In this document: one piece after another, positions 7,557 through 22,265 of the stretch
Position numbering within the stretch: the first letter of the stretch is position 1
Layout of the letters: each line of letters starts with the position of its first letter
Virus record (IMG/VR): IMGVR_UViG_3300044617_001237
Span: 1 to 22,265 of that record
Length of the DNA stretch: 22,265 nucleotides
Origin: a virus
Reading direction: 5' to 3' (one strand)
Program-made: the position numbers and the translations under genes
Notes under the pieces: generated by a model
Databases searched by the model: none
Told to the model about the DNA's origin: nothing
The model's input: the letters and a program-made list of their open reading frames with translations, nothing else

Positions 7557-7567
7557 AACCGCCCTGG

Positions 7568-8662: not shown

Positions 8663-8976
8663 GGTGTCCCCGCTTTCGTTTGCGCGGCGAGGGCGGCGTC
8701 CACCTTGGCGTTCCAATCGCTGGCTCCGCAGTCGCACATGGCGTCTCGGATACCGCCGACCGTGACGGCCGAGCACGAGTGCCATTCGTCTTCGCCGACG
8801 GCGTGAACGCGCCGTGACTGCTGCGCCAACGTACGCAGCGCCGCGTTCTCGCGCTCAAGCTCGGCCACGCGGGCGCGCAGGGCCAAGTAGTCGGCTTCCG
8901 AGACAAAGCGCTCGGACCCGCTATCCGCATCGGCGCTGAACGTGTAGATCCAGCGCTTTGCGTTGTCAGCTTCCAT
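8659..8976 (-). CDS. Coiled-coil protein with C-terminal Cys/His cluster
   Basis: This 105-residue protein has an N-terminal beta-like part, a leucine/glutamate heptad stretch (about 28-52, YLALRARVAELERENAALRTLA), and then a region with His and Cys residues (EWHSCSAV...MCDCGASDW) that could bind a metal. The family is not recognised. The ATG at 8976 lies inside the upstream gene (11-base overlap) with a GGAAGGGGG ribosome site just before it. It ends in an ATGA overlap with the next gene. Confidence 0.6.
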   Translation of the reverse strand: MEADNAKRWIYTFSADADSGSERFVSEADYLALRARVAELERENAALRTLAQQSRRVHAVGEDEWHSCSAVTVGGIRDAMCDCGASDWNAKVDAALAAQTKAGTP

Positions 8977-9406
8977 GCGCGCCCCCTTCCGCCGTCGCCA
9001 CGCGCGCCGCCTTGCGCTTCACGTGCCTCGCGCGGTCACGCTCCCGGCGACACGTGCGGCACTCGCGCCGTCCGTCGTCTCGCACGAGCACGTTGCAGCG
9101 GTGCAGTTCGTGGCCGTGCTGGCAGTGCTCCATGCGCGGCCGCTCCGACGCCGCATTGCGCTGAGCCTCGTCCGCCGGCAAGTCGCGCGGCTCGAGCCTC
9201 CAGTATTCGCGCGTCTCCCCACCCGCGTACGTCACGCGCCAGAGCTCGAGCCACGGGCTGCGCTTGTAGCCGGTCTCGCGCCTCACCCGCGGCGTGACTT
9301 CGACGTGCTCGACTCGCCGGCCGTCTGGCAACGTGTGGCGCCGCTTGAACTCGCGGAGGATCTCGGCGCGGCGATCGTTCGCCACTTCGATCTGAGAGGC
9401 TCTCAC
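8966..9406 (-). CDS. Zinc-ribbon phage protein
   Basis: This is a 146-residue, strongly basic protein. The C-terminal ~55 residues carry the phage motif Cys-x-His-Gly-His...Asn-x-x-x-Arg-x-Asp-Gly-Arg-Arg-x-Cys-x-x-Cys, a probable zinc ribbon often seen in small phage proteins and beside HNH nucleases. No HNH core is present. The N-terminal half (EFKRRHTLPDGRRVEHVEVTP...YWRLEPRDLP) looks like a small beta domain. It starts with GTG overlapping the upstream stop (GTGA). DNA binding is plausible from the charge and ribbon; the exact role is unknown. Confidence 0.6.
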   Translation of the reverse strand: MRASQIEVANDRRAEILREFKRRHTLPDGRRVEHVEVTPRVRRETGYKRSPWLELWRVTYAGGETREYWRLEPRDLPADEAQRNAASERPRMEHCQHGHELHRCNVLVRDDGRRECRTCRRERDRARHVKRKAARVATAEGGAHGS

Positions 9407-10347
9407 ACGCCCCTCCTATACCCGTTCGCCAGCGGCACGTTCTCGGCGAGGATCCACTTCGTCGGGCTGATGCGCTCGTACACAAGGATGCGCCCGTCGC
9501 CCTTCATGCGCCGGATGTCCACGGTGTCGTGGTGGCGCGTGATGGCGAGGTTGTTCCCGTAGTCGAGATGAACGCCCGCGATCTCGATGTGCTCGGGACC
9601 GCTCGTCGGCGCGTCCTTGATCTCGGGCTGGTAGATCTGCACCGGGTTGCGATCGGGGTTGAGCATCCCCACGTAGCCGCCGTTCCACTTGAGCGAGCGG
9701 CAGTAACCCACGAGCACGCCGCCGAACGAGTTGTAGGGGCGTCCGTTCTTGACCACGACCACGCCCGCGTCCTTCGTTCGCACGTTGAGCCCACGGATAC
9801 GCACGTCGGTCAGCGGGCCTTGGTCGAAGATCGTGAACGAGAAGCCCGCACGGCCCACGCCGCGCGCCTGGCCGCACTCGCTCACGCGCACGTCGGTGAA
9901 TCGCAGCGTGCGCTTGACGTTCCACATGGGGTCCGCGCGGTTGCCCGTGTGGCGGAACTGAGGCCCCTGCGCGCCGCACTTCTCGAACAGGCAGTCCTCG
10001 TAGGTGAGGTCGCCCGCGCCCGTGCTCTCGTAGTCCGCGTGCTCCATCCACGCGCCCGAGACGTAGACGCGACGGCGCACGCCTGAGCACTTGTAGCGCC
10101 GGATGCCCCACTTGCTCATCGTGAGCGTGTCCGTGGGCGACGTGGGCGGCAAGCACTCGATACGCACGTCCTCCAGCACGTCGTTGTCGTGCGGCTCGTT
10201 GTGGTCGATGAGCGCCGCCCAGTAGCCCTGGTAGCGGATGTGCGTCTTGCGCAGCTCGTAGTTCTTGGTGCCCTTGGGAATGAAGATCGCGCCGCTCGAC
10301 TTGAGCGGTCCCTTGATCTTGGGCGGGGCGAAGTTGGGTCCGGTCAT
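9403..10347 (-). CDS. Right-handed beta-helix (pectin-lyase-like) protein in the early arm
   Basis: This 314-residue protein is built of repeated short strands with turn residues: LEDVRIECL, LTYEDCLFEKCG, LRFTDVRVSECG, LTDVRIRGLNVR and HIEIAGVHLDYGNN. This is the pattern of a parallel beta-helix as in tailspikes and polysaccharide lyases. There is no signal peptide. The N-terminus (MTGPNFAPPKIKGPLKSSG) is Pro/Lys-rich and could be an anchor. The start at 10347 overlaps the upstream stop (ATGA), which excludes the longer frame. Its place is odd: virion beta-helix proteins are normally in the late arm, yet this gene sits between resolvase-side genes and methylase-side genes on the opposite strand. 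It may be a spike, a capsule-related enzyme, or a cargo gene. Confidence 0.65.
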   Translation of the reverse strand: MTGPNFAPPKIKGPLKSSGAIFIPKGTKNYELRKTHIRYQGYWAALIDHNEPHDNDVLEDVRIECLPPTSPTDTLTMSKWGIRRYKCSGVRRRVYVSGAWMEHADYESTGAGDLTYEDCLFEKCGAQGPQFRHTGNRADPMWNVKRTLRFTDVRVSECGQARGVGRAGFSFTIFDQGPLTDVRIRGLNVRTKDAGVVVVKNGRPYNSFGGVLVGYCRSLKWNGGYVGMLNPDRNPVQIYQPEIKDAPTSGPEHIEIAGVHLDYGNNLAITRHHDTVDIRRMKGDGRILVYERISPTKWILAENVPLANGYRRGV

Positions 10348-10562
10348 TGGTTCTCCTGCGGTAGTTGCCCCACGCCAGACGCGGCGGGGGTGGTCAGTTT
10401 GCGCACCATGTTGCGGACCTCCTCGGGTCCGTCGTACCTGCGCTCCATCTCGCCGAACGCGGCTTCGTACGCTTCCACGCGCGCGATGGCGCATTCGTGG
10501 TGGACGCGCCAGCACTCGTGCCAGTGGGCGGGGCCGCCGTGGATGATGATGAACTCGCTCAC
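10344..10562 (-). CDS. Small His-rich protein, unrecognised
   Basis: This 72-residue protein begins MSEFIIIHGGPAHWHECWRVHHEC. The His/Cys-rich N-terminus may bind a metal; the rest is helical (IARVEAYEAAFGEMERRYDGPEEVRNMVRKL). GTG at 10562 overlaps the resolvase stop (GTGA) and continues as GTGAGCGA, the start form shared by many genes here. It ends in ATGA with the beta-helix gene. No function can be assigned. Confidence 0.6.
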   Translation of the reverse strand: MSEFIIIHGGPAHWHECWRVHHECAIARVEAYEAAFGEMERRYDGPEEVRNMVRKLTTPAASGVGQLPQENQ

Positions 10563-11071
10563 TGCACCACGCTCCCCGTGCGCGCGTCGCGGCGACCTGC
10601 GCGATCCCAGCGAACCGGGCATCCCGTGCGGTCGAGCGGCTGGACGCTCAAGAGCAGGCCCGGCTCAGTGCGCACGGTGAAGTCTACGTAGTGCTTCCGC
10701 GCGCGAACGTCCACGATGCGCGAATCGTCCCACAACACGACGCCGGTGAGCGCGTCGCCAACTGCGCGCACGAGCTTGTCGAGGTCGGGCTTCGTCGTGG
10801 GCGCGAAGGGCGCGCTCGGACTCAGACCACGCTTGCCATAGTGCGACTTGAGGCGCTCGAAGTAGAACGCGAGCGAGACGTAGACGGGGCAGTCGAGAAG
10901 CTCGTGCCCGTGACCGCTGGCGCGCAGCACCGTGCGGATGGTCTCGCGCCACGGCATCGTGCGCTTGTTGTCGCTGACGAGGCGCGCGTGAGATCCACGT
11001 CGCACGGCCTTGAGCGAGCCCTGCGGCGCTGGCGTGCCGGGGATCCAGATGGTCAGTTCGGTGGCGGTCAA
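10559..11071 (-). CDS. rusA: RusA-family Holliday junction resolvase
   Basis: This 170-residue enzyme should cut four-way DNA junctions during phage recombination or before packaging. RusA family features: an early strand LTIWIPGTPAPQGS, then KPDLDKL with Asp96 and Asp98, and ALTGVVLWDDSRI with Asp115/Asp116. These correspond to the three catalytic aspartates of E. coli RusA. The last ~35 residues, rich in Arg, extend past the usual family end of about 120-140. I place the start at TTG 11071 because it overlaps the upstream stop as TTGA and begins just before the first strand; the frame is open far upstream, but that part has no RusA homology. It acts in the cytoplasm, together with the recombination genes of the preceding unit. 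Confidence 0.85.
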   Translation of the reverse strand: MTATELTIWIPGTPAPQGSLKAVRRGSHARLVSDNKRTMPWRETIRTVLRASGHGHELLDCPVYVSLAFYFERLKSHYGKRGLSPSAPFAPTTKPDLDKLVRAVGDALTGVVLWDDSRIVDVRARKHYVDFTVRTEPGLLLSVQPLDRTGCPVRWDRAGRRDARTGSVVQ

Positions 11072-11259
11072 AACGGCTTCCTCGAGTTCGTGTAGTCGTG
11101 GTCGGTCGTGCCATTGCGCCGCTCGCAAGCGCAGTACGCCAAGCCGAGAACGAGCGCGTGGTCTTGTCCCTCGCACCAGTGGGCGTCCTTGTAGATCCAG
11201 CGGACCCAGCGCGGGATGCGGCCGCGGCGGTCGAGCCAGCGGTAGAGCAGATCGCTCAC
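11068..11259 (-). CDS. Small Cys/Trp-rich protein, unrecognised
   Basis: This 63-residue basic protein (MSDLLYRWLDRRGRIPRW...) has a central HWCEGQDHALVLG and then CACERR, so up to three Cys and a His could hold a metal. GTG at 11259 overlaps the upstream stop (GTGA) and reads GTGAGCGA; its stop overlaps the resolvase TTG. I see no known family. Its reality rests on the two tight overlaps and the unbroken gene chain. Confidence 0.5.
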   Translation of the reverse strand: MSDLLYRWLDRRGRIPRWVRWIYKDAHWCEGQDHALVLGLAYCACERRNGTTDHDYTNSRKPF

Positions 11260-11576
11260 GCCCCACCTCGCGCGCGGATGGCCGCGGCGCACCCGCACTG
11301 GTAGCAGTCGTCGCACGCCTTCGCGTTCGCCTCGCGCTCGTCAGCGAGGGCGGCGGCGAGGAGGGCGTGCAGGTCGGCGCGCGTGTTCCACTGCCGCACG
11401 GCGTCATCTTTCGCCTTCGACGTGTCGCCGTTCCAGTCGCAATCGGTCGATGCGCCCGTCGCGTCGCAGCCGCCGCAGACCACTTGGTAGCTGTAGTTCG
11501 TCACGCGAGGATCTTCGTGCGAGAGAAGTGTCCCTTTGCCCCCACAGAACGGGCACGGCAGTAGTTGCTCGCTCAC
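11256..11576 (-). CDS. Lar-like restriction-alleviation zinc-ribbon protein
   Basis: This 106-residue protein starts MSEQLLPCPFCGG, with Cys8/Cys11 and Cys34/Cys37 forming a zinc ribbon and WNTR at 63-66. This is the arrangement of the Lar_restr_allev family (phage and Rac-prophage Lar), which eases host type I restriction by modulating EcoKI-type enzymes. The C-terminus adds a second Cys cluster (ACDDCYQCGC), which the short Lar proteins lack. It lies among methylases and a helicase, in line with an anti-restriction role. Many phage proteins share this ribbon without a proven function, so the activity is inferred. GTG at 11576 overlaps the upstream stop. Confidence 0.65.
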   Translation of the reverse strand: MSEQLLPCPFCGGKGTLLSHEDPRVTNYSYQVVCGGCDATGASTDCDWNGDTSKAKDDAVRQWNTRADLHALLAAALADEREANAKACDDCYQCGCAAAIRARGGA

Positions 11577-11845
11577 CTGCTCGCCTCCATCGCCCGCACG
11601 GCGCGCATGAGACGGGACACGGCGCGCGCGTAGCCAACCGCGTCAAGCTCGCGGTCCACGTCGTGCCACTCCTTCGCCGCAGCGCACACTTCGAGCATGG
11701 CGGGCGTGTACTCGTCGGGCCGCAGCGCCTCGTTGTGCGCCTTCTTCTCCTCGGCCAGCGCGCGCGTGAGGTCGGCGATCTGCTCGGTGTAGCTGCGGCG
11801 CGAGGACTCAAGCGCCTCCCGCAGTTTCTTCTCAGCTTCGTTCAT
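11573..11845 (-). CDS. Coiled-coil protein, unrecognised
   Basis: This 90-residue protein is almost all helix, with heptad-like charged and Leu residues in the first ~45 positions (EKKLREALESSRRSYTEQIADLTRALAEEKKAH), then AMLEVCAAAKEWHDVD and a basic end. A clear AAGGAG site lies just before the ATG at 11845, set in the 15-base gap after the methylase. Its stop overlaps the Lar-like gene (GTGA). Such proteins are common in phage early operons; no role can be named. Confidence 0.6.
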   Translation of the reverse strand: MNEAEKKLREALESSRRSYTEQIADLTRALAEEKKAHNEALRPDEYTPAMLEVCAAAKEWHDVDRELDAVGYARAVSRLMRAVRAMEASR

Positions 11846-11860
11846 CGCGTTCTCCTTGTG

Positions 11861-12847
11861 TCACTCCAGGCCCGCAGACGCTTCGGCGTCCACTTGATCG
11901 AAAAGGGTCGGCTCGACCTTGCGCGTGCCAGCTTCGGACACGTTGCGCACAGCCTGCCGGTAGTAGCTCGGCTTGAGCTCCACGCCGATCGCGCGGCGCC
12001 CAGCGCACACAGCGGCATAGACCTCGCTCCCGACGCCCATGAACGGCGTGAGCACCGTCTCGCCCTCGTTGCTCCACAGCACGAGCGCGCGGTCGATCAC
12101 GTCCAGTTGCAAAGGGTGCACGTGCTTCTCGTCCTCGGCATCGCGCGCCTCGCGGTAGGGCAGCACGCGATCGAGCCGCACGTCGTCCCAGAAAGCGCTC
12201 GCGTACTGGCGCCAGATCCAGTGCGAGTAGCGATTCTGGATCTGGTTCCCGGTCCAGCCCTTGTAGCTCAACACGTCGGACGGAATCTGTCGCGCGCCGG
12301 CGTACTCGAGCAATCCAACGGGGTGCGACACGGGAACCCCGTTCTTGCCCTTGCGCCGGAACACGAGCAGGTAGTCAGCGCTGGCGACGGTGCAGCGCGA
12401 CGAGTCCTCGACGATCGACTTGTGCGCGAGGGCCTTCGTCATCGTCCGATTGCGCACCGTGAGCGGCTCCTTCCAAACGTGGTAGCGCGCGACGTAATCG
12501 AACCCGAGGCGCGCGTGCTGGCGGATGATGTCGCCGGGGAAGTCGCGCAGCACGTCGCATCCCGTGTTGCCGCTGGGAACGTCCATGCAGTGAACCGCGG
12601 TCATGCGGCCCGGCTTGGTCACGCGCGCGATCTCGCCGACGATGAAGTCGTAGTGCGTGAAGAACTCTTCGTAGCTCTTGCAGTTCGACAGATCGCGCTC
12701 GTTCGAGCTGTAGTGGTACAGGCCGGCGAACGGCGGCGAGTAGATCGACAGATCGACGGACGCGTCGGGAAGGTCGCGCATGACCTCCATGCAATCGCCG
12801 TTGTAGATGGCGAAGCGGTCAGTCACGAGTTGGTCTAGGACAGCCAT
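11861..12847 (-). CDS. DNA N4-cytosine/N6-adenine methyltransferase (beta class)
   Basis: This 328-residue methylase has SPPF at 37-40 (motif IV, the catalytic loop) ahead of TPFMGVGSEVY near the C-terminus (motif I, cofactor binding), followed by AIGVELKPSYY. This order defines the beta class of the N6_N4_Mtase family (PF01555). SPPF does not decide between adenine N6 and cytosine N4. The middle ~150 residues (LRDFPGDIIRQHARLGFDYVARYHVWKEPL...) form the expected target-recognition insert. It overlaps the helicase gene by 13 bases. No restriction nuclease is adjacent, so it is best read as an orphan phage methylase that hides DNA from host restriction or times replication. ATG at 12847 is the only start close to the fold's beginning. 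Confidence 0.88.
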   Translation of the reverse strand: MAVLDQLVTDRFAIYNGDCMEVMRDLPDASVDLSIYSPPFAGLYHYSSNERDLSNCKSYEEFFTHYDFIVGEIARVTKPGRMTAVHCMDVPSGNTGCDVLRDFPGDIIRQHARLGFDYVARYHVWKEPLTVRNRTMTKALAHKSIVEDSSRCTVASADYLLVFRRKGKNGVPVSHPVGLLEYAGARQIPSDVLSYKGWTGNQIQNRYSHWIWRQYASAFWDDVRLDRVLPYREARDAEDEKHVHPLQLDVIDRALVLWSNEGETVLTPFMGVGSEVYAAVCAGRRAIGVELKPSYYRQAVRNVSEAGTRKVEPTLFDQVDAEASAGLE

Positions 12848-14265
12848 TGGGGAACCTCGGTCTTGGTGGGGTAGTTCACAGAGCGCCCGATGGAGAGCGC
12901 GTTGTTCATGTTGGCGACGAGTTCGGCGAACATCGCCGAGGCTTGGTCGGCCTTGCGCTTCAAGTTCTCTTGCACGATCGCGCCGCCTTCCGTGGTCACG
13001 ATGTCCACGACGACGGGGCGCTTTTGCCCGAAGCGCCAGCATCGGCGAACGGACTGGTAGAGCTGCTCGAAGCTGTGCGACGGGAACCAAGTCATATGCG
13101 CGCAGTGCTGCCAGTTGAGGCCCCACGCGCCGATCTTCGGTTTGATGACCAGCACGCGCGCACGGCCCTTGCCGAACTCCTCGAATAGCGCCTCCTTGCG
13201 CTCTGGCTCGTCGCTGCCCTGAATCTCGATCGCGCCCGGCACAAGCTCGCGCAGTAGCTTCCCCTCGGCGTTCAGGTGGCACCACATGACGGCCGGCTCG
13301 CCGTGCGCGTTCACGAGTGCCGCGGCTCGCTCGCACCGCTCGACGATCGTTCGGCGCTGCTCCTCGCGTTGTTCGTGCAAGCCCTCGGCGGGAAGCTCGA
13401 ACAGCATCCCCGGCGCGAGGCGCTTGGCCTTGACGATATGCAGCACTTCGCGGAGTTCGGGCAGCACGAATCGCTCGTCGGAAAAGCCCAGGTCCGACGG
13501 CTTGCGGCACGCGCGCGCCCACGAGCAAACCCAGCGCCAGAAGTGCGCCTCGGCGTGTCCCTTGAAACGCCACTTGAGCCCCATGTCTTGCCGCTGACCG
13601 CGGTACGCGCCCTTCGTGTTCGAGTTGTTCATCGCGTTGACGAAGAACTTCCCGAGCATGTCCATGTGCCCGAGGTAGCCGAGCGCCTCGCTGGACGTGC
13701 CGAGTTCGATGTAGTCGTTGGGCGCCGCGGTCGCCGTCGCCAGCAAGCGATAGGGGAGCTTGCGCATCAGGTCCGTGACGACCGCGCGGCGCACGCCATC
13801 GAAGTTTTTGATCGCGCTCGACTCGTCGCACACGAACCCGCCGAGCTTCGACGCGTCGAACAGGTGAAGGCGTTCGTAGTTCGTTGCGACAACGCCGCAC
13901 GGGAGCGAGCCGTCGCGCGAGACCGCGGCCTCGACGCCGAACTTCGCCGCCTCTTCGACCATTTGCTGCGACACGGCAAGCGGAGTCGCGACGAGCACGG
14001 GCTTTCCGGTTCGCGCGTAGACGTTCTGCGCCCACGCCAGTTCCATCAAGCTTTTGCCGAGGCCGCAGTCGGCCCACACAGCCGCGCGACCCTTGCGCAG
14101 GCTCCATTCGATGAGCGCGCGCTGGAAGTCGAACGCCTCGCTCGGCATCCACGACGGGTCGAACCCGTGGTCACCTTCTAGCTGCGCCTTCGAGTCAAGG
14201 AAATCCCCGTAGCTCGCCGCAGCTTCGGGCGCTTGCACGCCACGCCATTCTCCGAGACCTCTCAC
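12835..14265 (-). CDS. SNF2-type superfamily 2 helicase/translocase
   Basis: This 476-residue ATPase has two RecA-like lobes. Visible motifs are a Q-motif (FDFQ, 45-48), Walker A in DCGLGKS (66-72), motif II as DESS (147-150), motif III TATAAPN (177-183), and in the second lobe QLYQSVRRCWRFGQ, the motif V/VI region typical of SNF2 proteins. Such phage proteins use ATP to move along or remodel duplex DNA, in replication or against bound proteins. GTG at 14265 overlaps the upstream stop (GTGA) and has AAGGAG six bases ahead. The 13-base overlap with the DNA methylase suggests joint expression and perhaps joint action. It could be a replication helicase, a recombination remodeller, or part of a modification system. 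Confidence 0.85.
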   Translation of the reverse strand: MRGLGEWRGVQAPEAAASYGDFLDSKAQLEGDHGFDPSWMPSEAFDFQRALIEWSLRKGRAAVWADCGLGKSLMELAWAQNVYARTGKPVLVATPLAVSQQMVEEAAKFGVEAAVSRDGSLPCGVVATNYERLHLFDASKLGGFVCDESSAIKNFDGVRRAVVTDLMRKLPYRLLATATAAPNDYIELGTSSEALGYLGHMDMLGKFFVNAMNNSNTKGAYRGQRQDMGLKWRFKGHAEAHFWRWVCSWARACRKPSDLGFSDERFVLPELREVLHIVKAKRLAPGMLFELPAEGLHEQREEQRRTIVERCERAAALVNAHGEPAVMWCHLNAEGKLLRELVPGAIEIQGSDEPERKEALFEEFGKGRARVLVIKPKIGAWGLNWQHCAHMTWFPSHSFEQLYQSVRRCWRFGQKRPVVVDIVTTEGGAIVQENLKRKADQASAMFAELVANMNNALSIGRSVNYPTKTEVPQWLS

Positions 14266-14369
14266 GAGTCACTCCTTCGCGAAAACATCCAGTAGCTCAC
14301 CCCAGCCGCGACGCTCACCAGCGAGCACCACGCGAGGTAGGCCAAAGCTGCGCACACGATGTAGTCCAT
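14262..14369 (-). CDS. Short single-span membrane peptide
   Basis: This 35-residue frame (MDYIVCAALAYLAWCSLVS..., ending FSRRSDS) is almost entirely one membrane helix with a basic end. Its stop overlaps the helicase start as GTGA. The frame extends upstream to 14471, but that part runs through the terminator stem and is unlikely to be coding. No good ribosome site precedes 14369, and the promoter-like motif lies at 14380-14400, so the start is uncertain and the gene may not be real. Confidence 0.4.
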   Translation of the reverse strand: MDYIVCAALAYLAWCSLVSVAAGVSYWMFSRRSDS

Positions 14370-14379
14370 GTCGCTATTC

Positions 14380-14400
14380 GTCAACGCTAATCCGTAGAAA
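14380..14400 (-). promoter_or_regulatory. Boundary motif copy A, with promoter-like TTGACG
   Basis: On the minus strand this reads TTTCTACG, two variable bases, then TTAGCGTTGAC, 19 of 21 identical to the copy at 20732-20752. It touches the T-tract of the upstream terminator and lies before the helicase unit. TTGACG (14384-14379) could be a -35 box; the -10 17 bases on (CATCGT) is poor. It could be a phage promoter or an operator. Confidence 0.45.
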
Positions 14401-14469
14401 AGAAAAGGCCCCGCCGAACAGCACGCTGTACTGAGCCAGCGCGCCCCTCTCCATGTGTTCGGCGGGGCC
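14398..14469 (-). terminator. Strong intrinsic terminator after the SbcC-like gene
   Basis: A perfect 14-base inverted repeat (arms 14456-14469 and 14407-14420) starts five bases after the ATPase stop in the reading direction and is followed by TTTTCTTTT (14406-14398). The 35-base loop holds a further 5-base stem (14424-14428 with 14438-14442). It should end the unit that carries the recombination genes. Confidence 0.8.
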
Positions 14470-14474
14470 ATCCA

Positions 14475-15899
14475 CTAGAGGACCTCGGCGCGCACGTCGC
14501 CGGAGTCGGCCTCGCCGGCCAAGAGCACGCATCCGCGCGAGAGGGCGTGCGCCTTGATCGCGGCGCGGTTCTCGGGGTCGAGCCCTTCCCACGCTTCCTG
14601 CGCGATCACGACGAGCTTGACGCGCCCGTCGATCTGCGGGACGGCATCGAGCGCGATGTCCACGCCGAGCTTCCATCGCTCGCCGCTGGAGAGCTTGCCC
14701 ATGCGCTCGACCTTCGCGCCCTTCGCGTAGACCAGCCGCCCCTCGGCGATCGTGAGGCCCGCCGGCATCGCGCGCGCGAGCATCGACTGGAGGACCTCGT
14801 CGCACTTCTCGGCAGCGTCGCGCAGTCGCTTCGCTTCGAGCGTGGCGGCGTCCTTCGCGGCGGCGTGCTTGTCGGCCTTCTTGCGGGCGGCGACGCGCTG
14901 CGTGAGAGCCTGAGCCCCCTCCAGCGTCGCGCGTGCGGCGTCCACGGCGGCGGCAGCCCCGCGCACCTGCTCCGGCGTCACGGTTTCGGCGGGCAGCGTG
15001 ATGGCGGCCTTCAGGGTGGCGATGGTGCGCTCGTGGTCCAGGGCGCGGACGTGCGCGGCCTTCGCGGTCGCAAGCTCGGCGCGGGCCTCGGCAAGCTGCG
15101 CCTCGAGGTCGGCCACGGCGCGCTCGACCAGCCGCAATGCCGCTTCGACGGTCGCGGACGGCGGGCCGCTGTGCTCAGCCTCGGCCTTCTCGAGCGCCTG
15201 GCGTGCCTGCTCGGCCCGGCTCGCCGCCAGCGCCTCGCCCTTCGCGCGTTCGACCAGCCGGGCGTGTTCGACCGTCGCCGATGCAAGCGCCGACTGCGCG
15301 GCCCCCACGTCAGCCACGTCATCCGGCCCCGCCCCGCCAGACAGCGCCAGAGCCGCGCTAAGCGCGCCGCCTTCGGCTTCGGCCTTGGACTCAAACTCGC
15401 GCGCCGCCGCCTGCAAATCACGGCGCAGGCCCGCGGCGAGGTCGGGCAGCGTCGAAGCGCTCACGGTCTTTGCGCTCGCGGCCCGGTGGTCCACGCCAAC
15501 GGCCTTCGCGAAGGTCGGAAGGTCGCTCGCTGCGCCCACCATGCGGCAGAGAGCCACGATACGCGCGGAGTCGGCGCGTTCGGCGTCCGCGATTTGCGGG
15601 TCCACGAACGTTTCGAGGCTGGTCCCGTCGATGACCGTGGCGAACAGCTCGCCAACGCGCGTCGTGCGCTTGGCCGTCACGGTCAGCTTGACGCCAAAGC
15701 CTTCGACGGTGCCGCGGTCGAGCGGGCGGCGCGGCTCGAGAGCGATGTTCTCGCCGGCCAGCGCGCGCACCGATTCGAGCGCCGTGCTCTTGCCTGCGCC
15801 GTTCGCGCCCTTGAGCACGACGACGCCCCCGCCTTCGGGGATGGGGATGGAAAGGGCGGCCAGCGCGCCGACGTTGTTGATGGTGAGGGATTCGCTCAT
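14475..15899 (-). CDS. SbcC/Rad50-like ATPase with coiled coil
   Basis: This 474-residue protein has Walker A at 31-39 (GANGAGKST) near the N-terminus. A long Ala/Glu-rich coiled coil follows (about 165-370), then the ABC signature LSSGER at 403-408. This is the SMC/Rad50 layout in a small form (SbcC is about 1000 residues). The Walker B strand reads LVVIAQE (429-435), with Ala-Gln where Asp is usual, so hydrolysis may be altered. Phages often pair such ATPases with exonucleases and annealing proteins to process DNA ends. It follows the RecT-position gene by eight bases and is the last gene before a terminator. No SbcD-type nuclease is seen; the YqaJ enzyme may take that part. Confidence 0.78.
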   Translation of the reverse strand: MSESLTINNVGALAALSIPIPEGGGVVVLKGANGAGKSTALESVRALAGENIALEPRRPLDRGTVEGFGVKLTVTAKRTTRVGELFATVIDGTSLETFVDPQIADAERADSARIVALCRMVGAASDLPTFAKAVGVDHRAASAKTVSASTLPDLAAGLRRDLQAAAREFESKAEAEGGALSAALALSGGAGPDDVADVGAAQSALASATVEHARLVERAKGEALAASRAEQARQALEKAEAEHSGPPSATVEAALRLVERAVADLEAQLAEARAELATAKAAHVRALDHERTIATLKAAITLPAETVTPEQVRGAAAAVDAARATLEGAQALTQRVAARKKADKHAAAKDAATLEAKRLRDAAEKCDEVLQSMLARAMPAGLTIAEGRLVYAKGAKVERMGKLSSGERWKLGVDIALDAVPQIDGRVKLVVIAQEAWEGLDPENRAAIKAHALSRGCVLLAGEADSGDVRAEVL

Positions 15900-15907
15900 G
15901 GGTGGTC

Positions 15908-16903
15908 TCAGAACTTGACGGGCGGGAGGGGATTGCCGTTCTCGTCGAGTTCGACGGGCGCGGCGGGAGTTGCGGGCGCGGCCTTGGCGGCCTTCGCGGT
16001 CATGCGGTCGGCGACGGGGGCGGTCTGGCCCTCGGCTTCAACGGTGCGCGGCGACGCTTGATCGTGATTGGCTGCGACTTCCGACCACGTCGTTTCCTTG
16101 TCGCGGATGGCGTTCCACACGGCGCGCAGGTCGGCGATCTCTTCGGGCGTCGCGTCGTCGATCTTGTGGCCTAGATACGCCGCAAGCATGTCTGCGCTCA
16201 CGCCGATCCGCCGGAACGCATCGACCATATTGCGCAGGCTGTCGCGCGGATCCTTCGCGATCTCGCCGCGCTCGGTCGCCTTGCACGCCTCCAGCGCCTC
16301 TTCGAGCAGGTCGCCGGGGACGAGGCGCAGGATGCACGTGCGAAGCGCCTTGCTCACGAGCGCGTTCTGCTTGTCGACGATCTCGTCGTCGGTCGCTTCG
16401 AGCAGGAACGTGTCGTAGCCCTTCGAGTTCTTGCGCGTGCTGATGATCCGGCGGCCGGCCAGCGGGCGCGAGCGCTCGATCGTCTTGGCAATCGTCACGT
16501 CGTAGGGGTAGGTGAGGTTCGCCTCGAGGTCGGTCGCCTCCACGCGCACGATGCGCTGCTCGGGCGAGTCGTAGATCGCGGAGACGTTCGTCGCGATGTT
16601 GCCCAGGGCGCGCGCAAAAGCCTCAGCCATGCGGATTCCCGGCCCGCTGACGGTCGAGTTGCCGACGGGCTTCGCGTACACGGCGGTCTTGGCGAAACCA
16701 GGCCGGCGGCAGTCCGCGAGGATCCGCTCTCGCGATCGCATCAGGTCGCGCGGGCGTTGCATGGCCACGATGAAGCGCGCTTGGACTGCGGCCTTCGCCT
16801 GCTCGGCCAATGCGAGCGCCGACGTTTCGCCGTGGCGCGTGACGCTCGATGCGTCGAAGGCCTGAATGGCGGTTTCGCCCGCCCGCGGTTGCTGTTCGCT
16901 CAC
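15908..16903 (-). CDS. Candidate single-strand annealing protein (RecT-position phage protein)
   Basis: This 331-residue protein has conserved-looking blocks: ALAEQAKAAVQARFIVAMQRPRDL, then CRRPGFAKTAVYAKPVG, GPGIRMAEAFARALGNI, a beta stretch with VRVEATDLEANL, and DEIVDKQNALVSKALRTCILRLVPGD. The Ala/Pro-rich tail (about 285-331) looks disordered. I know similar phage proteins but no firm family name. The gene directly follows a YqaJ-type exonuclease with a GTGA overlap and AAGGAG site, the place usually held by RecT/YqaK-like annealing proteins. An annealing or ssDNA-binding role is therefore inferred from position, size and the acidic tail. Alternatives are a replication accessory or recombination mediator. 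Confidence 0.55.
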   Translation of the reverse strand: MSEQQPRAGETAIQAFDASSVTRHGETSALALAEQAKAAVQARFIVAMQRPRDLMRSRERILADCRRPGFAKTAVYAKPVGNSTVSGPGIRMAEAFARALGNIATNVSAIYDSPEQRIVRVEATDLEANLTYPYDVTIAKTIERSRPLAGRRIISTRKNSKGYDTFLLEATDDEIVDKQNALVSKALRTCILRLVPGDLLEEALEACKATERGEIAKDPRDSLRNMVDAFRRIGVSADMLAAYLGHKIDDATPEEIADLRAVWNAIRDKETTWSEVAANHDQASPRTVEAEGQTAPVADRMTAKAAKAAPATPAAPVELDENGNPLPPVKF

Positions 16904-17925
16904 TTGCCGTTCTCCTTGAATGTCAGTTGGGGGTAGGTCGTCGGTTCAACGGTGTAGCCCTTGCGGACCACGGTCTTGCGCACGTACTCGCCCGATCCAT
17001 CGGGCAAGCTGCCGTAGGTCGCGCCGTCGAGAAGCGCCTCGATGCGCGTCGCGGCCTGCTCTTCGAGCGTCTTCAGGTCCTCGGCGGCCTTCTCCAGCTT
17101 GAGCCGCTCCTTGCGCCAGTCCTGCAACTCGGCGTGAATCGTCAGCGCGTCGTTGGGAAGCACGATCGTTCGCCCGCTGTCGTCGGGGTGCAGGGCCGAG
17201 CGGACCTTGCGCGCGTCGCCGGCCGCTGCCGAGTCCCAGTCGGGTTCCACGCCTTCGCGCAGGCATCGCGCGAACGAGCCTTCGAGCGCCACGATCGAGT
17301 GAATGGGGATGCTCGGCGCGTGGGCGCTCTCGATCACCATGCGCAGCGCGTCCATGCCGATCACGGCCCCGAGACACGCGCTTTCGACGCCTGTGACGGC
17401 GAGGGAGTGCAACACCTGGAAGCGGTAGATGGTGGGGGCCATGCCGCTCTCGTCGCCGCCCCAGTCGCGCGCCGCGTTCATGCCGACAGTCTTGATCTCG
17501 ACCACTTCGAGCGTGCCGTCGGGGCGCTCGGCGAGCCCGTCCAACGTCGCAGTCATCCACGGCCACTTCGTCGAACGCACGAACGGTTGCCAGCGACCGC
17601 GCTCGTGGACCCAGCCTTCGACCTTGCACGCGCCAAGGGCCTCCAGCCGTTGCTCGAACGCCGCGCGGTCCTCGGGCGTCGCCGTGGGCAGCAAGCGGTA
17701 GCCGGTGGCGTGCACGTACTCTTCGAGGCCGAACGCTTCGAGGGCCAGTCCGCGGCGTGTGGCGAACGTGGAGACGTGCTCGCGCTCCTGCTTGCCCAGC
17801 TTTTCGGCCCACAGTCGCAGCGCCGAGCAGTAGCGCGACTCGCCACACGCTGCCGCCGCTTCGCTCGCGCCGATCGAGCCGGTGCGCAAGGCGAGCCATT
17901 GGTCGCGGTTCAACTCAGCGCGCAC
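16900..17925 (-). CDS. YqaJ-type viral recombinase (lambda-exonuclease-like nuclease)
   Basis: This 341-residue enzyme belongs to the PD-(D/E)XK fold used by lambda Exo and RecE. Seen: RTGSIGASEAAAACG (14-28, the Gly-x-Ser box), RRGLALE with Glu63, TATLDGL with Asp129, VVEIK with Glu143 and Lys145, and a Gln-x-x-His stretch (QVLHSLAVTG). It should resect double-strand ends 5' to 3' and hand the strand to an annealing protein, fitting the next gene. The C-terminal ~110 residues, partly coiled coil, extend beyond the nuclease core. I chose GTG 17925 (11-base overlap, AAAGG nine bases before); a TTG at 17979 in the same frame lacks a ribosome site and would overlap the upstream gene by 65 bases. 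Confidence 0.85.
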   Translation of the reverse strand: MRAELNRDQWLALRTGSIGASEAAAACGESRYCSALRLWAEKLGKQEREHVSTFATRRGLALEAFGLEEYVHATGYRLLPTATPEDRAAFEQRLEALGACKVEGWVHERGRWQPFVRSTKWPWMTATLDGLAERPDGTLEVVEIKTVGMNAARDWGGDESGMAPTIYRFQVLHSLAVTGVESACLGAVIGMDALRMVIESAHAPSIPIHSIVALEGSFARCLREGVEPDWDSAAAGDARKVRSALHPDDSGRTIVLPNDALTIHAELQDWRKERLKLEKAAEDLKTLEEQAATRIEALLDGATYGSLPDGSGEYVRKTVVRKGYTVEPTTYPQLTFKENGK

Positions 17926-18190
17926 GGGCAGCCGCCTTTCGCCGTTGGTCAAGCGCGAGACTCCACACACGACGGTCAACGGTCGTGCCGAAGAGGCGGT
18001 CGAGCTTGTCGCACACGAGCTCGCCGGGGATCTTGCCGCGGTAGTCGGCGAGCAGGTTGTTGAGCGACGCGATGCCGATGCCGGCGCGAACGCACGCCTC
18101 TTCGCGGCGCAGCTTGAGGCGTTTCAACTCGTCGGCGACGTGGCGGGCCAGTGCGGACTTGGGGCGTTTCGTGGTCTTGCGTTTCGTCAT
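17915..18190 (-). CDS. Small basic HTH-like DNA-binding protein
   Basis: This 91-residue protein is Lys/Arg-rich at both ends. The middle (about 14-68) reads like a Cro/C1-type helix-turn-helix: RHVADELKRLKLRREEACVRAGIGIASLNNLLADYRGKI is split as helix, turn with Ala-Gly-Ile, recognition helix SLNNLLA, then a helix ending LFGTT. It may regulate the leftward genes or bind the boundary motif, but its place inside the operon before the exonuclease is also compatible with an accessory recombination role. ATG at 18190 overlaps the upstream stop (ATGA). Confidence 0.6.
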   Translation of the reverse strand: MTKRKTTKRPKSALARHVADELKRLKLRREEACVRAGIGIASLNNLLADYRGKIPGELVCDKLDRLFGTTVDRRVWSLALDQRRKAAARAR

Positions 18191-18309
18191 GCGATCACCA
18201 GGGGCAACACGTAGAAGAGAAGGACGCCCAGCGCGAGGAACACCCCGACGCCAAGCCAGAAGTCCGCGAGGCTCTCGCCTTCGCAGTCGTAGTCGTCGCG
18301 GTTGGTCAC
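18187..18309 (-). CDS. 40-residue single-span membrane protein
   Basis: This peptide has an acidic N-terminus (MTNRDDYDCEGESLADF) and one membrane helix (about 19-38, LGVGVFLALGVLLFYVLPLV). Small spans like this are common in phage early operons and usually lack known roles. GTG at 18309 overlaps the upstream stop and its own stop overlaps the HTH gene start, so both ends are fixed by 4-base overlaps; the longer open frame has an unlikely Arg-rich extension. Confidence 0.55.
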   Translation of the reverse strand: MTNRDDYDCEGESLADFWLGVGVFLALGVLLFYVLPLVIA

Positions 18310-18611
18310 GGGTTCACCTCGCCGCGTGCGCGCGCCAGTGCAGCGCGAGCCAAGTCGATGCCCATAATTCCGCACGACTCGCCGGGACAAGTCGCATCGT
18401 GAGACTCCACGATCATGCGCAGGGCCGAGTACAGCGCGGGCGCGGATGCAATCAGCGCACCGTTAGCGCGATACTCCACGCGCTTTTCGGCTGTGACCCC
18501 AGGTCCGCAGAGTTCCGCGATGATGACGCGATCCCGTGCATTGGCATCGTCCGTGTAGATCGAAAGATCGTTGTACCGCCACGGCCCCGGCGTGAACTTC
18601 GGCGCGCTCAC
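18306..18611 (-). CDS. Conserved phage protein of the FTPGPW type
   Basis: This 101-residue protein begins MSAPKFTPGPWRYND and later has YRANGALIASAPALYSALRMIVE. Both blocks are hallmarks of a widespread small phage/prophage family of unknown role found in early operons. The region between is a small beta sheet (SIYTDDANARDRVIIAEL). A late pair of Cys (CPGESCG) is present. GTG at 18611 overlaps the upstream stop. I can place the family but know no activity. Confidence 0.65.
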   Translation of the reverse strand: MSAPKFTPGPWRYNDLSIYTDDANARDRVIIAELCGPGVTAEKRVEYRANGALIASAPALYSALRMIVESHDATCPGESCGIMGIDLARAALARARGEVNP

Positions 18612-18874
18612 GGCATCGCCTCCACCGCGCCATCAACCTCGGCGCGCGCGAGCAAGTCCTCAAGCCGCGGAGGATGGCCCCCGCGATCCATGCGCAGTCC
18701 CGCGCGGTCCTCGTAGCGCCTCAGTGCGTCGCGGCGATTGCGTGCAACGGCGATCACGCGCGCGATCAGGTCGGCCTCCAGCGGGCTTTCAAGGTGGCGT
18801 TCGAGGGCGTCGAGCATCAGGTCGGCGCTGTCCTCGAAGGCGATTCGTAGGTCGGCGTGGAGTGTGTGTCGCAT
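18608..18874 (-). CDS. Small helical protein, unrecognised
   Basis: This 88-residue protein (MRHTLHADLRIAFEDSADLMLDALERHLESP...) is predicted helical from its composition, with an acidic first half and a basic second half (ARNRRDALRRYEDRAGLRMDR). ATG at 18874 has AAAGGA eight bases before it and lies two bases after the upstream stop; the longer frame is less likely. It ends in a GTGA overlap. Confidence 0.55.
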   Translation of the reverse strand: MRHTLHADLRIAFEDSADLMLDALERHLESPLEADLIARVIAVARNRRDALRRYEDRAGLRMDRGGHPPRLEDLLARAEVDGAVEAMP

Positions 18875-18876
18875 GG

Positions 18877-19293
18877 TCAAGATCCTTTCTGCGCGTTGAT
18901 CGCCGCGCGTGCGTTTTCGAGACGTTCGAGGCGCGCGAGGTAGTGGCGGCGCGTCTCCATCCACTCGGCGAGCGACCGATTGAACCTCTCCGAGTCGATC
19001 GCGGCGCCGAGCAGTCTTTGCGCCATTTCCTCGTGAGGGTCAATCGCCAGCGATGCGCGCGCGGCGTCGCCAGTCGCAAGCAGCGCCACGGCATCGCGCA
19101 GAGAGTTCGACGCCTCGCGGTAGGTCGTGGCGACTTCGAGAAGCGCGTCTTTCGCGGCGACGAGTTCGTGGTGGAGGTGGGCTGAGTTCATGGCGTGGGC
19201 TTTGGTGTCCTGAAAATCCTGGGGGAACGCGAGTCGCATCAGCGCGTCGCGAAAGCTGCGGTCCGTAGTTCCGTCCCGGACGTGGCGCTTCAC
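18877..19293 (-). CDS. Helical protein, unrecognised
   Basis: This 138-residue protein begins MKRHVRDGTTDRSFRDALMRL and continues as long amphipathic helices (LHHELVAAKDALLEVATTYREASNSLRDAVALLA, then RSLAEWMETRRHYLARLERLENA). GTG at 19293 overlaps the upstream stop (GTGA). An internal ATG at the MNSAHLHHE position is an alternative start that would drop about 34 residues. No function is visible. Confidence 0.55.
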   Translation of the reverse strand: MKRHVRDGTTDRSFRDALMRLAFPQDFQDTKAHAMNSAHLHHELVAAKDALLEVATTYREASNSLRDAVALLATGDAARASLAIDPHEEMAQRLLGAAIDSERFNRSLAEWMETRRHYLARLERLENARAAINAQKGS

Positions 19294-19727
19294 GGCAGCA
19301 CCTTCGCCTTGATCGCGGCGCCGGCCTCGCGTTCGACGGTCTCGATGATCGCGACCTCTTCGCGCAGTCGCACGGCGCGGGCTCTCATCGTGTTGATCTT
19401 GTCCCACATGATCGCCGACGCCTTGACTCGCATGTTGACCGGCAGCTTGTCGAGGATGGTGGAGCACGCATCGGCAAGCCCCAGCGCGGTGGCAAGCGGG
19501 TCAGTCTTCAACGGTAGCGGCAAGTACCAATCGAAGGTGATGCCGCACGGATGGCTGGCCCAAAACTCAATCTGCCCGGCGACGTTGGCCGTGACCTCGT
19601 CGACGTGGCCCCACGGAAGGTCACCGCACGAAGCGTTGAGGGTGACGCTTTGCACGCCAAGCTCGCGCAGATGCGCGATCCGTCGGACGTGCCACTCAAA
19701 CGAGTTCGAAGAGTGGAAGTCGCTCAC
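19290..19727 (-). CDS. Unrecognised alpha/beta protein with basic C-terminal helix
   Basis: This 145-residue protein begins MSDFHSSNSFEWHVRRIAHL. The middle has a beta-type stretch (VQSVTLNASCGDLPWGHVDEVTANVAGQIEFWASHPCGITFDWYLPL, with two Cys), and the C-terminal half is helical and basic. I do not recognise it. GTG at 19727, again in the form GTGAGCGA, overlaps the upstream stop. The beta part could be a small ligand- or DNA-binding fold, but nothing points to one. Confidence 0.55.
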   Translation of the reverse strand: MSDFHSSNSFEWHVRRIAHLRELGVQSVTLNASCGDLPWGHVDEVTANVAGQIEFWASHPCGITFDWYLPLPLKTDPLATALGLADACSTILDKLPVNMRVKASAIMWDKINTMRARAVRLREEVAIIETVEREAGAAIKAKVLP

Positions 19728-19891
19728 GCCGCACCGCCTTCGACGTAGCACACGCGCCCCTCGCACTTGAACGCGCCAGCGCCGCCGTCGATCTCTGCCG
19801 CCGTGATGCTCGCGAGTAGCTCGCGTTCGGTCGCCGGGCGAATCGCGTCGCCGGTCGAGTAGTCGCGCAGGGTGCCGTAGTCGGGGGTCAT
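19724..19891 (-). CDS. 55-residue protein with C-terminal GRVCYVEGG motif
   Basis: This short protein (MTPDYGTLRDYSTGDAIRPATERELLASITAAEIDGG..., ending EGRVCYVEGGAA) has the N-terminal form of small phage proteins in which a Thr-Gly-Asp...Arg-Pro-Ala-Thr segment precedes a helix. Its last residues resemble the C-terminus of the first gene of this unit (GRIVYVDGG). ATG at 19891 overlaps the upstream stop and its stop overlaps the next GTG. Function unknown. Confidence 0.55.
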   Translation of the reverse strand: MTPDYGTLRDYSTGDAIRPATERELLASITAAEIDGGAGAFKCEGRVCYVEGGAA

Positions 19892-20217
19892 GATCCGCTC
19901 TCCTCTTTGGCCTTCGCGAGGAACTCGTCGACGTAGTTCGTGGCGCCGCGGATCGTCAGTTCGTAGCCGTACTGGCTGCCCCAGTCGCACGATTCGCATC
20001 CGCCCTCCGAGCGCCTGTCTACGTCGATGTTGCGCGTGCCGAACAGGTCGCACAGCGCCATGAGTCGCTCGGCCGTCAGCGGCGGGGCGTCGTACATCCG
20101 ATAGCACGTGAGCGTCAGCTCGGCGCGGTCCGCACCGGAGAACTCGAACTTCACGTCGCACCACGCATCGGGCTCGCTCCAGATCGCGTCCAGCTTGCTT
20201 TTGAGTGTGTCGCTCAC
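19888..20217 (-). CDS. Unrecognised protein with CESCDWG motif
   Basis: This 109-residue acidic protein begins MSDTLKSKLDAIWSEPDAWCDVKFEFS and alternates strands and helices (ELTLTCYRMYDAPPLTAERLMALCDLFGT, then GCESCDWGSQYGYELTIRG). Phage proteins with a C-x-x-C-D-W-G stretch next to a beta strand are common in early regions and have no known role. GTG at 20217 (GTGAGCGA form) overlaps the upstream stop; ATGA overlap at the other end. Confidence 0.55.
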   Translation of the reverse strand: MSDTLKSKLDAIWSEPDAWCDVKFEFSGADRAELTLTCYRMYDAPPLTAERLMALCDLFGTRNIDVDRRSEGGCESCDWGSQYGYELTIRGATNYVDEFLAKAKEESGS

Positions 20218-20420
20218 GCTTGCACCGCCTTTGCCATCGCCGCATTACGCGCGTCGATCTCGCGTTGCTCGCGGTCCAAGCGCGCAGCTTCCTTCTCGGC
20301 CTCGCGCATGTTCGGCACGTAGCTCTTGAGCACGGCGCCGTCGGCGTGGTGGATGGCGTACGCGCCGCGAGCGTGGCGGCGGATGAAGACAAGGCCGCGG
20401 GGTAAGTCGGAGTGGTTCAC
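20214..20420 (-). CDS. 68-residue small protein, unrecognised
   Basis: This protein (MNHSDLPRGLVFIRRHARGAYAIHHADGAVLKSYV...) has a short beta-type first half and a charged helix rich in Arg, Glu and Ala (REAEKEAARLDREQREIDARNAAMAKAVQA). GTG at 20420 overlaps the upstream stop. It may be a small nucleic-acid-associated protein, but no family is recognised. Confidence 0.5.
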   Translation of the reverse strand: MNHSDLPRGLVFIRRHARGAYAIHHADGAVLKSYVPNMREAEKEAARLDREQREIDARNAAMAKAVQA

Positions 20421-20638
20421 GCGATCACCGCCTTTGCGCTCACTCCGCCGTCGACGTAGACGATGCGCCCGTCGTCGCGGACGATGTAGCGATCCGAGTA
20501 GCCACCCTGCGCGCGACAGCCGCGAGCGTCGCGCGCCAAGCAACGCTGAGCGGCTCCGATGCTCCGATGGTCGTGGCCGCAGCAGCCGCGGACGGAGCCG
20601 ATGGTGGTATAGGTGTGATGGGCGATGGCGTGCGTCAT
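20417..20638 (-). CDS. Small Cys/His protein, first gene of the middle leftward unit
   Basis: This 73-residue protein has TIGSVRGCCGHDHRSIGAAQRCLARDARGC, then GGYSDRYIV and DGRIVYVDGG. The Cys-Gly-His-x-His-Arg...Ala...Cys layout is shared by small phage proteins that probably bind zinc. It is the first gene after the 150-base gap with a promoter at about 20708-20736, so it leads a unit of 13 genes ending at the terminator near 14400. The ribosome site is weak. Its role is unknown; a regulatory one is a guess from position. Confidence 0.6.
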   Translation of the reverse strand: MTHAIAHHTYTTIGSVRGCCGHDHRSIGAAQRCLARDARGCRAQGGYSDRYIVRDDGRIVYVDGGVSAKAVIA

Positions 20639-20707
20639 GGCTTGCGTCTTTCGTGTGTCGCGCCGTCCGGCCCCGGTCGCTCGTCGGGGCGTCGCGGCGA
20701 TGGAGGT

Positions 20708-20736
20708 ACTATCGACGCTCTAGTGCTGACGGTCAA
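20708..20736 (-). promoter_or_regulatory. Leftward sigma-70-like promoter
   Basis: On the minus strand, TTGACC (20736-20731) is followed after exactly 17 bases by GATAGT (20713-20708), matching 5 of 6 and 4 of 6 consensus bases. It lies in the only sizeable gap of this arm, about 70 bases before the ATG at 20638. The -35 box is part of the boundary motif. The gap (20639-20788) otherwise holds only the repeats listed separately. Confidence 0.55.
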
Positions 20737-20752
20737 CGCTAAAGCGTAGAAA
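20732..20752 (-). promoter_or_regulatory. Boundary motif copy B, with embedded palindrome
   Basis: This is the second copy of the motif at 14380-14400 (two mismatches in 21). Its centre is a dyad ACGCT-AA-AGCGT (20736-20747) that touches the -35 box, as an operator would. The dyad is incomplete in copy A. Confidence 0.5.
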
Positions 20753-20762
20753 TAGAGCGTAG
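20743..20762. repeat. Direct repeat AGCGTAG, 13-base period
   Basis: AGCGTAG occurs at 20743-20749 and 20756-20762, six bases apart, just upstream (on the minus strand) of the promoter and partly in the boundary motif. It may be a paired regulator site; seven bases is short in this GC-rich sequence, so chance cannot be excluded. Confidence 0.35.
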
Positions 20763-20788
20763 CGACGTAAACCCTTGCGCGGGGCCAG

Positions 20789-21367
20789 CTAATCCCACCC
20801 GCCGCTGTTCCGCTCGGACCCGGTCTCGTCGCCGTCGAAGAGGACTTCGCCCCTCGCGAGCGTCGGGAGAGTCTCGGCCTCGGTCTCTGGAGCGCCGGGC
20901 AGCGGGCCGGGTGGCGTCACGGGGCGCTTGGCCAGCAAGTCGAGGACGGCGGCGTTCCATGCGCTCGCTCGCTCGGGGCTCGCCGGCTGAGCTTCGGGCC
21001 ACAGTCGCGAGGGGCGCGGCGGAAGGGGGGCGGCCGCGCGCATCGACTTCTCGGGCTCGATCCACGTGCGCAACCACGTCTCGCACGTCTCGGGCGGGCG
21101 GTCCGAGCTGACGCGCGACGATGACAGCGCTGACGCACGGCACGCGAGCACGTGATCCAGCGTCCAGCCGTGGACCCGCAAGTCACGCTCGCACGCACGG
21201 CGCTCCACGTCGCCAGCGGTGCCGAGGATGAGCCTGCCGTTGCCCGAGAGCCAGTAGTGGATTCGGTCGACGATGAGCCACTCCTCGCAAGCGGCCGTCC
21301 ACCATCGGCGGCGACTCTCGGCGTCCGTGCGCGAGTTGTAAAACAGGGATCCGGCGGGGGCGGTCAT
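20789..21367 (-). CDS. Unrecognised protein with Pro-rich acidic C-terminal half
   Basis: This 192-residue protein has an N-terminal half of about 90 residues with Trp-rich helices (RRRWWTAACEEWLIVDRIHYWLSGNG, ERDLRVHGWTLDHVLACRASAL). The C-terminal half is Pro/Ala-rich, probably disordered, and ends acidic (LFDGDETGSERNSGGWD). An acidic flexible tail is typical of proteins that meet ssDNA-binding or replication partners, so a replication accessory role is possible but unproven. The start at 21367 overlaps the upstream stop (ATGA). It is the last gene of the first leftward unit. Confidence 0.55.
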   Translation of the reverse strand: MTAPAGSLFYNSRTDAESRRRWWTAACEEWLIVDRIHYWLSGNGRLILGTAGDVERRACERDLRVHGWTLDHVLACRASALSSSRVSSDRPPETCETWLRTWIEPEKSMRAAAPLPPRPSRLWPEAQPASPERASAWNAAVLDLLAKRPVTPPGPLPGAPETEAETLPTLARGEVLFDGDETGSERNSGGWD

Positions 21368-21573
21368 TGGCGAGCCTCCCACGCCGCGCGGGCGCGCCGC
21401 AGGTCGCTTTCAGCGCTGGCGAGCGAGTTCTCCGCCCGCTTCACCATCCGTTGAGCGATCGCCGGGTCTAGCGCCACGACGGAGAGCAGCGTTGCCGCGT
21501 ACCGCTCGCGTTCGTAGTTGACCCGCCCGGCGGCCTCCACGGCCGTCGCGAATAGGCGTTCAAGGTCACTCAC
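21364..21573 (-). CDS. Small helical coiled-coil protein, unrecognised
   Basis: This 69-residue protein (MSDLERLFATAVEAAGRVNYERERYAATLLSVV...) appears all helical with a C-terminal coiled-coil-like stretch (RAENSLASAESDLRRARAAWEA). GTG at 21573 overlaps the upstream stop (GTGA), and its stop gives ATGA. Set between two possible replication-accessory genes; no activity can be named. Confidence 0.5.
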   Translation of the reverse strand: MSDLERLFATAVEAAGRVNYERERYAATLLSVVALDPAIAQRMVKRAENSLASAESDLRRARAAWEARQ

Positions 21574-22259
21574 GATCCACCCCCGCCCGCTTTCTGAACC
21601 TGGGTCCGGCTCTCGCGCTTGAGCATGTCCGCGAGCTGCCGATCGAGGTGCCGGCGTCGCTCAAGGTCCGAGGCCATCCCGCCCCGCACGGACAGCCTTC
21701 GAGCCTCTTCCTTGTCTCGCGCCTCCTGCTCGGCCTTAGCTTGGCGCTGGGCTTCACCATTGCCACCGTCCGCGCGTTCGGACGGAAAACTTGACCCGAG
21801 AGCCGAGTTTCCGCCATCGTGCGCTAGCGGCGATTCTGTGGAGTTTGTGGGCAAGGCGCCGTTTTCGGCCCTTTGAGACGCGAGAAGCTCCTCCGCACGC
21901 CGCCGCCGCGCCGACAGCCGCTCGGCGAGGTCCACGACGTCCGCGAGCGTCGGGGGGTAGTTCCGCCCATCGGGGGCCTTCGCTCGAGTCGCGGCCTCCA
22001 CGGCCCGCGCGCACTCGTCGAGGGTGTAGCTCCCAAGCTCGGCGACGAACGCGCGGCCGGTGTCGGCGGTCACGGGGAAGCGCGCGCCGTACACCGCGGC
22101 GAGGTAGCGCATGGCGTGGTTGGCGAGCTCGGCGTGGTTTCGCGCGGGCTTGCCCTCGCTGACGAAGGCCAGCTTCGCGACGGCGGGGTGCGGCGGCGCC
22201 ACGGGACCGACGGCGTGCGAGGAATCGGGGGACGGGGCGGGGAGTTGCGGGGCGTTCAT
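21570..22259 (-). CDS. Possible replication accessory or helicase-loader-like protein
   Basis: This 229-residue protein begins with a Pro-rich leader (MNAPQLPAPSPDSSHAVG). A helical domain follows (about 40-115) with HAMRYLAAVYGARFPVTADTGRAFVAELGSYTLDECARAVEAATRA and then NYPPTLADVVDLAE. A helix bundle ending in Tyr-Pro-Pro-(Thr/Ser)-x-Ala-Asp-Val recalls phage helicase loaders of the G39P/G40P-inhibitor type, which bring DnaB-like helicase to the origin. The second half is a charged, probably disordered or coiled-coil region (QAKAEQEARDKEEARRL). The match is by pattern only; a phage replication organiser or an unrelated family is possible. ATG at 22259 lies six bases from the window edge, so the upstream context is not visible. 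Confidence 0.5.
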   Translation of the reverse strand: MNAPQLPAPSPDSSHAVGPVAPPHPAVAKLAFVSEGKPARNHAELANHAMRYLAAVYGARFPVTADTGRAFVAELGSYTLDECARAVEAATRAKAPDGRNYPPTLADVVDLAERLSARRRRAEELLASQRAENGALPTNSTESPLAHDGGNSALGSSFPSERADGGNGEAQRQAKAEQEARDKEEARRLSVRGGMASDLERRRHLDRQLADMLKRESRTQVQKAGGGGS

Positions 22260-22265
22260 GGGCGG

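Follow-up and report, generated by a model that had tools for sequence, protein, structure and literature searches.

Why does one 21-bp sequence stand at two gene-unit boundaries of a phage's minus-strand arm, and what might it do there? An earlier, sequence-only reading of the DNA considered here (the window, a complete virus record of 22,265 bases) had proposed that this motif is a phage-specific promoter or operator co-regulating the leftward units.

Motif copies and their conservation

A pattern scan of the window confirmed the positions and strand first reported: TTTCTACGNNTTAGCGTTGAC has exactly two matches, copy A at 14380-14400(-), which reads TTTCTACGGATTAGCGTTGAC, and copy B at 20732-20752(-), which reads TTTCTACGCTTTAGCGTTGAC. 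The claim that there are no further copies holds as well, with no third copy in the whole window at up to 3 mismatches. The pattern was never matched in 100 dinucleotide shuffles. When the window was compared with itself, with scores weighted by base composition, the pair of copies was the top 21-bp repeat (score 38.5; the runner-up pair scored 34.2, and nothing in three shuffled windows scored above 34.2).

Both copies are located in noncoding DNA in the same orientation, and none was found within genes. They had been described as occupying gaps in an otherwise gapless arm. The gaps, at 20639-20788 (150 bp) and 14266-14474 (209 bp), are real and are the two largest in the tiled part of the minus-strand arm, but “otherwise gapless” is only nearly right, since gene tiling of positions 11256-22259 leaves one more gap of ~98 bp at 19192-19289. 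Judging from the tiling, the unit headed by copy B would span 14475-20638(-); it contains small genes and genes for an HTH protein, a YqaJ exonuclease, a phrog_3657 protein and an AAA ATPase. The unit headed by copy A would start with the stretch 11256-14265(-) and continue leftward; a DEAD-like helicase, a DNA methyltransferase and small genes belong to it.

When 2.9 million viral contigs were scanned for exact matches, just two others, both from IMG/VR, carried the motif. Since these are 99.99% identical to each other, they count as one virus, referred to below as the relative, which is the sole other virus found with the gene block; conservation as discussed here thus means conservation in one independent relative. 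Loss of the motif from close relatives had been named as an outcome that would speak against its function; both copies are retained in the relative, in the same contexts as in the window. Copy A is identical in the two viruses, copy B of the relative reads TTTCTACCGTTTAGCGTTGAC, and all changes are confined to the central triplet. Because the relative shows position 8 to be free as well, the motif is best written TTTCTACNNNTTAGCGTTGAC, with three variable central bases and 18 bases that are invariant in the window and the relative. The TTGAC of both copies is in the -35 register, and the distances from the motif to the first start codon are 114 and 111 nt at copy A and 93 and 91 nt at copy B.

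Viral contigs scanned with patterns of 19, 15 and 16 fixed bases yielded the known relative plus single matches and nothing more; almost all of the single matches came from contigs whose G+C content is much lower and which lack the surrounding features. There were no matches in GTDB contigs. Comparison with phage and plasmid records gave short chance pieces and nothing longer for the copy B block, and no matches for the copy A block. Protein-based scans (RecT-like protein, ATPase, YqaJ and HTH protein) found no further close relative, and in the loci retrieved by these scans the motif at 4-5 mismatches occurred in numbers not clearly above those of scrambled motifs. A wider operator family, ACGCTNTAGCGT, was considered and rejected, as with 2 mismatches allowed it is no more frequent than in shuffles.

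Predicted promoters at copies B and A

At copy B, the motif runs into a -35 box, TTGACC (20731-20736, minus strand), which is followed after a 17-bp spacer by a -10 box, GATAGT (20708-20713, minus strand); both are conserved in the relative. They are part of a promoter-leader block of 102 bp (20651-20752, minus strand) that is 95% identical in the two viruses. The similarity begins exactly at the copy B motif and ends before the first genes, which are unrelated, as are the flanks. TTGACC-17-GATAGT is the only σ70-like promoter found in 6000-22265. This match alone is not significant, since shuffles of the region also give about one; it gets its weight from conservation in the relative, and on this ground predicted promoter B is well supported.

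The first reading had also placed a dyad within copy B over the -35 box of a fair promoter. The dyad, ACGCTTTAGCGT in the window's copy B, is changed to ACGGATTAGCGT in copy A and to ACCGTTTAGCGT in the relative's copy B, and an internal dyad conserved across motif copies was therefore rejected. Missed at that time was a degenerate inverted second copy, B′ (20710-20730, plus strand), located 1 bp downstream of copy B and matching it at 16/21 bases (14/21 in the relative). Relative to the predicted start, the centres of copy B and B′ fall near -40 and -20, at a distance of 21 bp from each other. Together the two copies form the window's only palindrome in which 21-bp arms make at least 15 pairs across a 1-bp loop. 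As shuffles contain 1.7 such palindromes anywhere, the surprise lies in the exact position of B′ and not in its existence. The pairs show no covariation between the two viruses, so that the case for B′ as a second site at promoter B is suggestive only.

Downstream of copy B, the leader contains a G+C-rich hairpin. A structured RNA leader was nevertheless rejected, because the leader folds no better than shuffles; the window has no match to Rfam families, and no stem-loop was found directly before copy B. An 8-bp inverted repeat, ACGCTCTA/TAGAGCGT, flanks copy B (window 20718-20763); its upstream arm is missing from the relative, and the repeat is thus present in the window only.

Copy A had been described as abutting a strong terminator, and this is borne out. 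An intrinsic terminator hairpin of 63 nt (14407-14469, minus strand; -44.5 kcal/mol), which would end the copy B unit, directly precedes the motif, and the T-rich tract that follows the hairpin (14395-14406) extends into copy A. In the relative, the hairpin has the same fold (-43.0 kcal/mol), and every stem substitution keeps pairing.

Downstream of the terminator, copy A places TTGACG (14379-14384) in the -35 position. Counted from TTGACG with the 17-bp spacing of promoter B, the candidate -10 element of promoter A is CATCGT in the window (14356-14361, minus strand) and CATTCT in the relative. It is poor (3/6 at 17 bp), though positions A2, T3 and T6 are invariant in all four copies. Transcription from predicted promoter A is inferred; the presumed leader of the unit would extend over 14266-14355 (minus strand) and end at the GTG start codon of the helicase at 14265. 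A 33-codon open reading frame lies over copy A, and a coding role for this stretch was rejected, as none of its 6 changed codons is synonymous, compared to 83/133 in the neighbouring ATPase gene (p=0.004). The small open reading frame next to it, in the presumed leader, shows a similar pattern (p=0.04). The stretch is best read as noncoding DNA made up of terminator, motif and leader.

Candidate regulators, mechanism and alternatives

Which protein might read the motif? The HTH protein of the copy B unit (91 aa, 17915-18190, minus strand; 98% identical in the relative) has an XRE-like fold in a single-sequence AlphaFold2 model of moderate confidence (mean pLDDT 67), and Foldseek gave weak scores, with C proteins and HigA among the top matches. 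The relative carries in addition an XRE-family HTH gene (PF13560, PF01381) that is divergent from copy B, so that its copy B sits between the early unit and the divergent gene. Classical phage control regions are arranged in this way, and the divergent XRE protein is a candidate regulator at least as good as the HTH protein at 17915-18190. No counterpart is visible in the window in the 1.5 kb upstream of copy B, to the end of the record.

We consider it likely that the motif is a phage-specific extended promoter/operator which starts two early recombination-module units and is probably read by an XRE-type protein. The earlier interpretation is thus supported in part and holds in outline: a promoter/operator heading the leftward units remains the best supported proposal, with both copies conserved and noncoding and a terminator before copy A, while the poor -10 element of promoter A counts against it. 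The binding protein, and co-regulation of both units by this putative regulator, are inferred. Some 16 bp, probably read by the regulator, would be fused to the -35 box (TTGAC) and form the upstream part of two early promoters. Copy B would start the early recombination unit, from 20638 leftward to 14475, and copy A, placed directly behind the intrinsic terminator of this first unit, would start the second one with the helicase, the methyltransferase and the genes beyond, both transcripts being made by host RNA polymerase. A phage-encoded protein, probably of the XRE type, would read TTTCTACNNNTTAGCG. At B it would probably occupy two inverted sites, one near -40, which suits activation, and one near -20, which suits repression. 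At A there would be one site before a weak -10 element, and since the site is single and the element weak, promoter A may depend on the regulator. A more elaborate version appears doubtful to us. In it, structurally different phages would exchange a mobile early recombination module together with its own two-promoter regulon, in which one XRE-type protein acts through paired inverted sites at B (activating from -40, repressing from -20) and through a single activating site at weak A, right behind the terminator of the module itself, and so provides an ordered switch from early to delayed-early expression.

Other explanations have to be weighed against the promoter/operator. The motif could serve mainly as a linker for module exchange, a short homology at unit boundaries whose promoter activity is incidental. 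The upstream edge of copy B is indeed the exact start of similarity between the two viruses, and new genes are found after both leaders (different first genes at B; the helicase-methyltransferase pair after A, in the window only). A linker, however, needs neither a conserved -35/-10 register nor a conserved leader, A and B have no common flanks, 18 bp is short for homologous recombination, and the edge at B is equally expected if selection ends at the upstream limit of a promoter; we regard this explanation as unlikely. Less probable still is action in RNA, e.g., as an antitermination or processing signal in transcripts crossing the terminator at A. The overlap of copy A with the terminator's T tract and the leader hairpin after B would fit such a role, but the motif at B is upstream of the predicted start and would not be transcribed from promoter B, whose leader, as noted, neither folds better than shuffles nor belongs to a window with any Rfam match.

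Two short conserved sites flanking a recombination module, one of them with an inverted partner, might also suggest a role in replication, packaging or some other transaction on DNA, for instance as an initiator or terminase site. The equal orientation of the copies, their similar distance to the start codon and the -35 register are not accounted for in this way, and the repeat array usual at phage origins is absent, which makes such a role very improbable. Hardly any room is left for a chance likeness or a short peptide encoded at both places: one frame does read FLxxSVD in both copies, with a stop within four codons, but no occurrences are expected by chance, the pair is the strongest repeat of the window, no synonymous bias exists over copy A, and conservation of the motif in the relative already refutes this explanation.

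The promoter/operator reading can be compared with known systems. PeSLs of T4-type phages are composite promoter/stem-loop cassettes (Arbiol et al. 2010, Comeau et al. 2014, as outlined in PMC4503421). As far as that outline goes, the likeness is that boundaries between gene units carry a stem-loop terminator beside a (here predicted) early promoter, and that genes are exchanged next to them. The present case differs in its sequence, in having two sites and not many, in the long conserved box that precedes the -35 element and in belonging to a small phage outside the T4 type. PeSL anatomy, a stem-loop terminator and then a weak predicted promoter, is present at copy A, with no stem-loop found directly before copy B. 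No T4-like genes were recognised among the scanned proteins of the 22- and 38-kb records. The SAS/ESAS elements of Cluster K mycobacteriophages, with GGGATAGGAGCCC right at the start codon and in many copies, are likewise short asymmetric motifs, mostly in one orientation, repeated before phage genes and kept between relatives (PMC3203893); the present motif has a different sequence and two copies, and stands 91-114 nt from the start codon. Judged by sequence, copy number, spacing and phage type, the motif belongs to neither group.

XRE-family regulators, among them lambda CI/Cro and the C proteins of restriction-modification systems, bind paired operators. The putative sites at B resemble these: they are about two helical turns apart and cover a predicted early promoter from roughly -40 to -20. 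The divergent XRE gene of the relative is a further likeness. Here, however, B′ is a degenerate site, only one site is present at A, the conserved motif lacks symmetry and binding is putative; dyad-symmetric sites of the kind found in paired operators are not conserved across the 21-bp motif copies. Phage-specific promoters or operators present at more than one unit are well known as a general kind, and the motif system is ordinary in this respect and not a new mechanism. Its value is that the sequence by itself indicates where an uncharacterised early region of a phage is likely to be controlled.

Shared and exchanged genes

The YqaJ exonuclease (94%), HTH protein (98%) and ATPase (89%) are common to both viruses, as are small genes and a gene (84%) at the arm's convergent end. 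The relative lacks the window's tail genes, its helicase and methyltransferase and its first genes after copy B. By this comparison, the two viruses are mosaic, the early module they share being combined with structural modules that differ; the likely control elements remain with the early module where structural genes, first genes and the annealing protein have been replaced. Positions 1-7000 of the window hold a GTA-like siphovirus tail module (Rcc01698-like protein, phrog_4271). The structural genes of the relative (contig L011) are unrelated to it, most being without a PHROG or Pfam match.

The first genes after a leader of this kind are a position where phages often hold exchangeable accessory genes. 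After the copy B leader they are unrelated in the two viruses, occupying ~2 kb in the window, 20417-18612(-), and 0.75 kb in the relative, L012:3394-4140(+). The helicase-methyltransferase pair (~2.4 kb, window 11861-14265(-)) is inserted right after the copy A leader; in the relative, which has neither gene, the next gene (MNEAEKK...) stands in their place with the same ribosome-binding site.

A further exchange is seen in the slot between the genes for the YqaJ exonuclease and the ATPase. In the window this slot holds the phrog_3657 protein (15908-16903(-)), a member of a function-unknown family with no Pfam match; in the relative it holds a canonical RecT (PF03837, 3.8e-45; L012:6119-7039(+)). 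Only over their final 47 residues do the two proteins match (81%), which looks like a swap of the annealing core with retention of the C-terminal tail. The occurrence of RecT in the same slot, together with the common last 47 residues, suggests that phrog_3657 proteins are single-strand annealing proteins, and this slot may be of more use than the motif itself.
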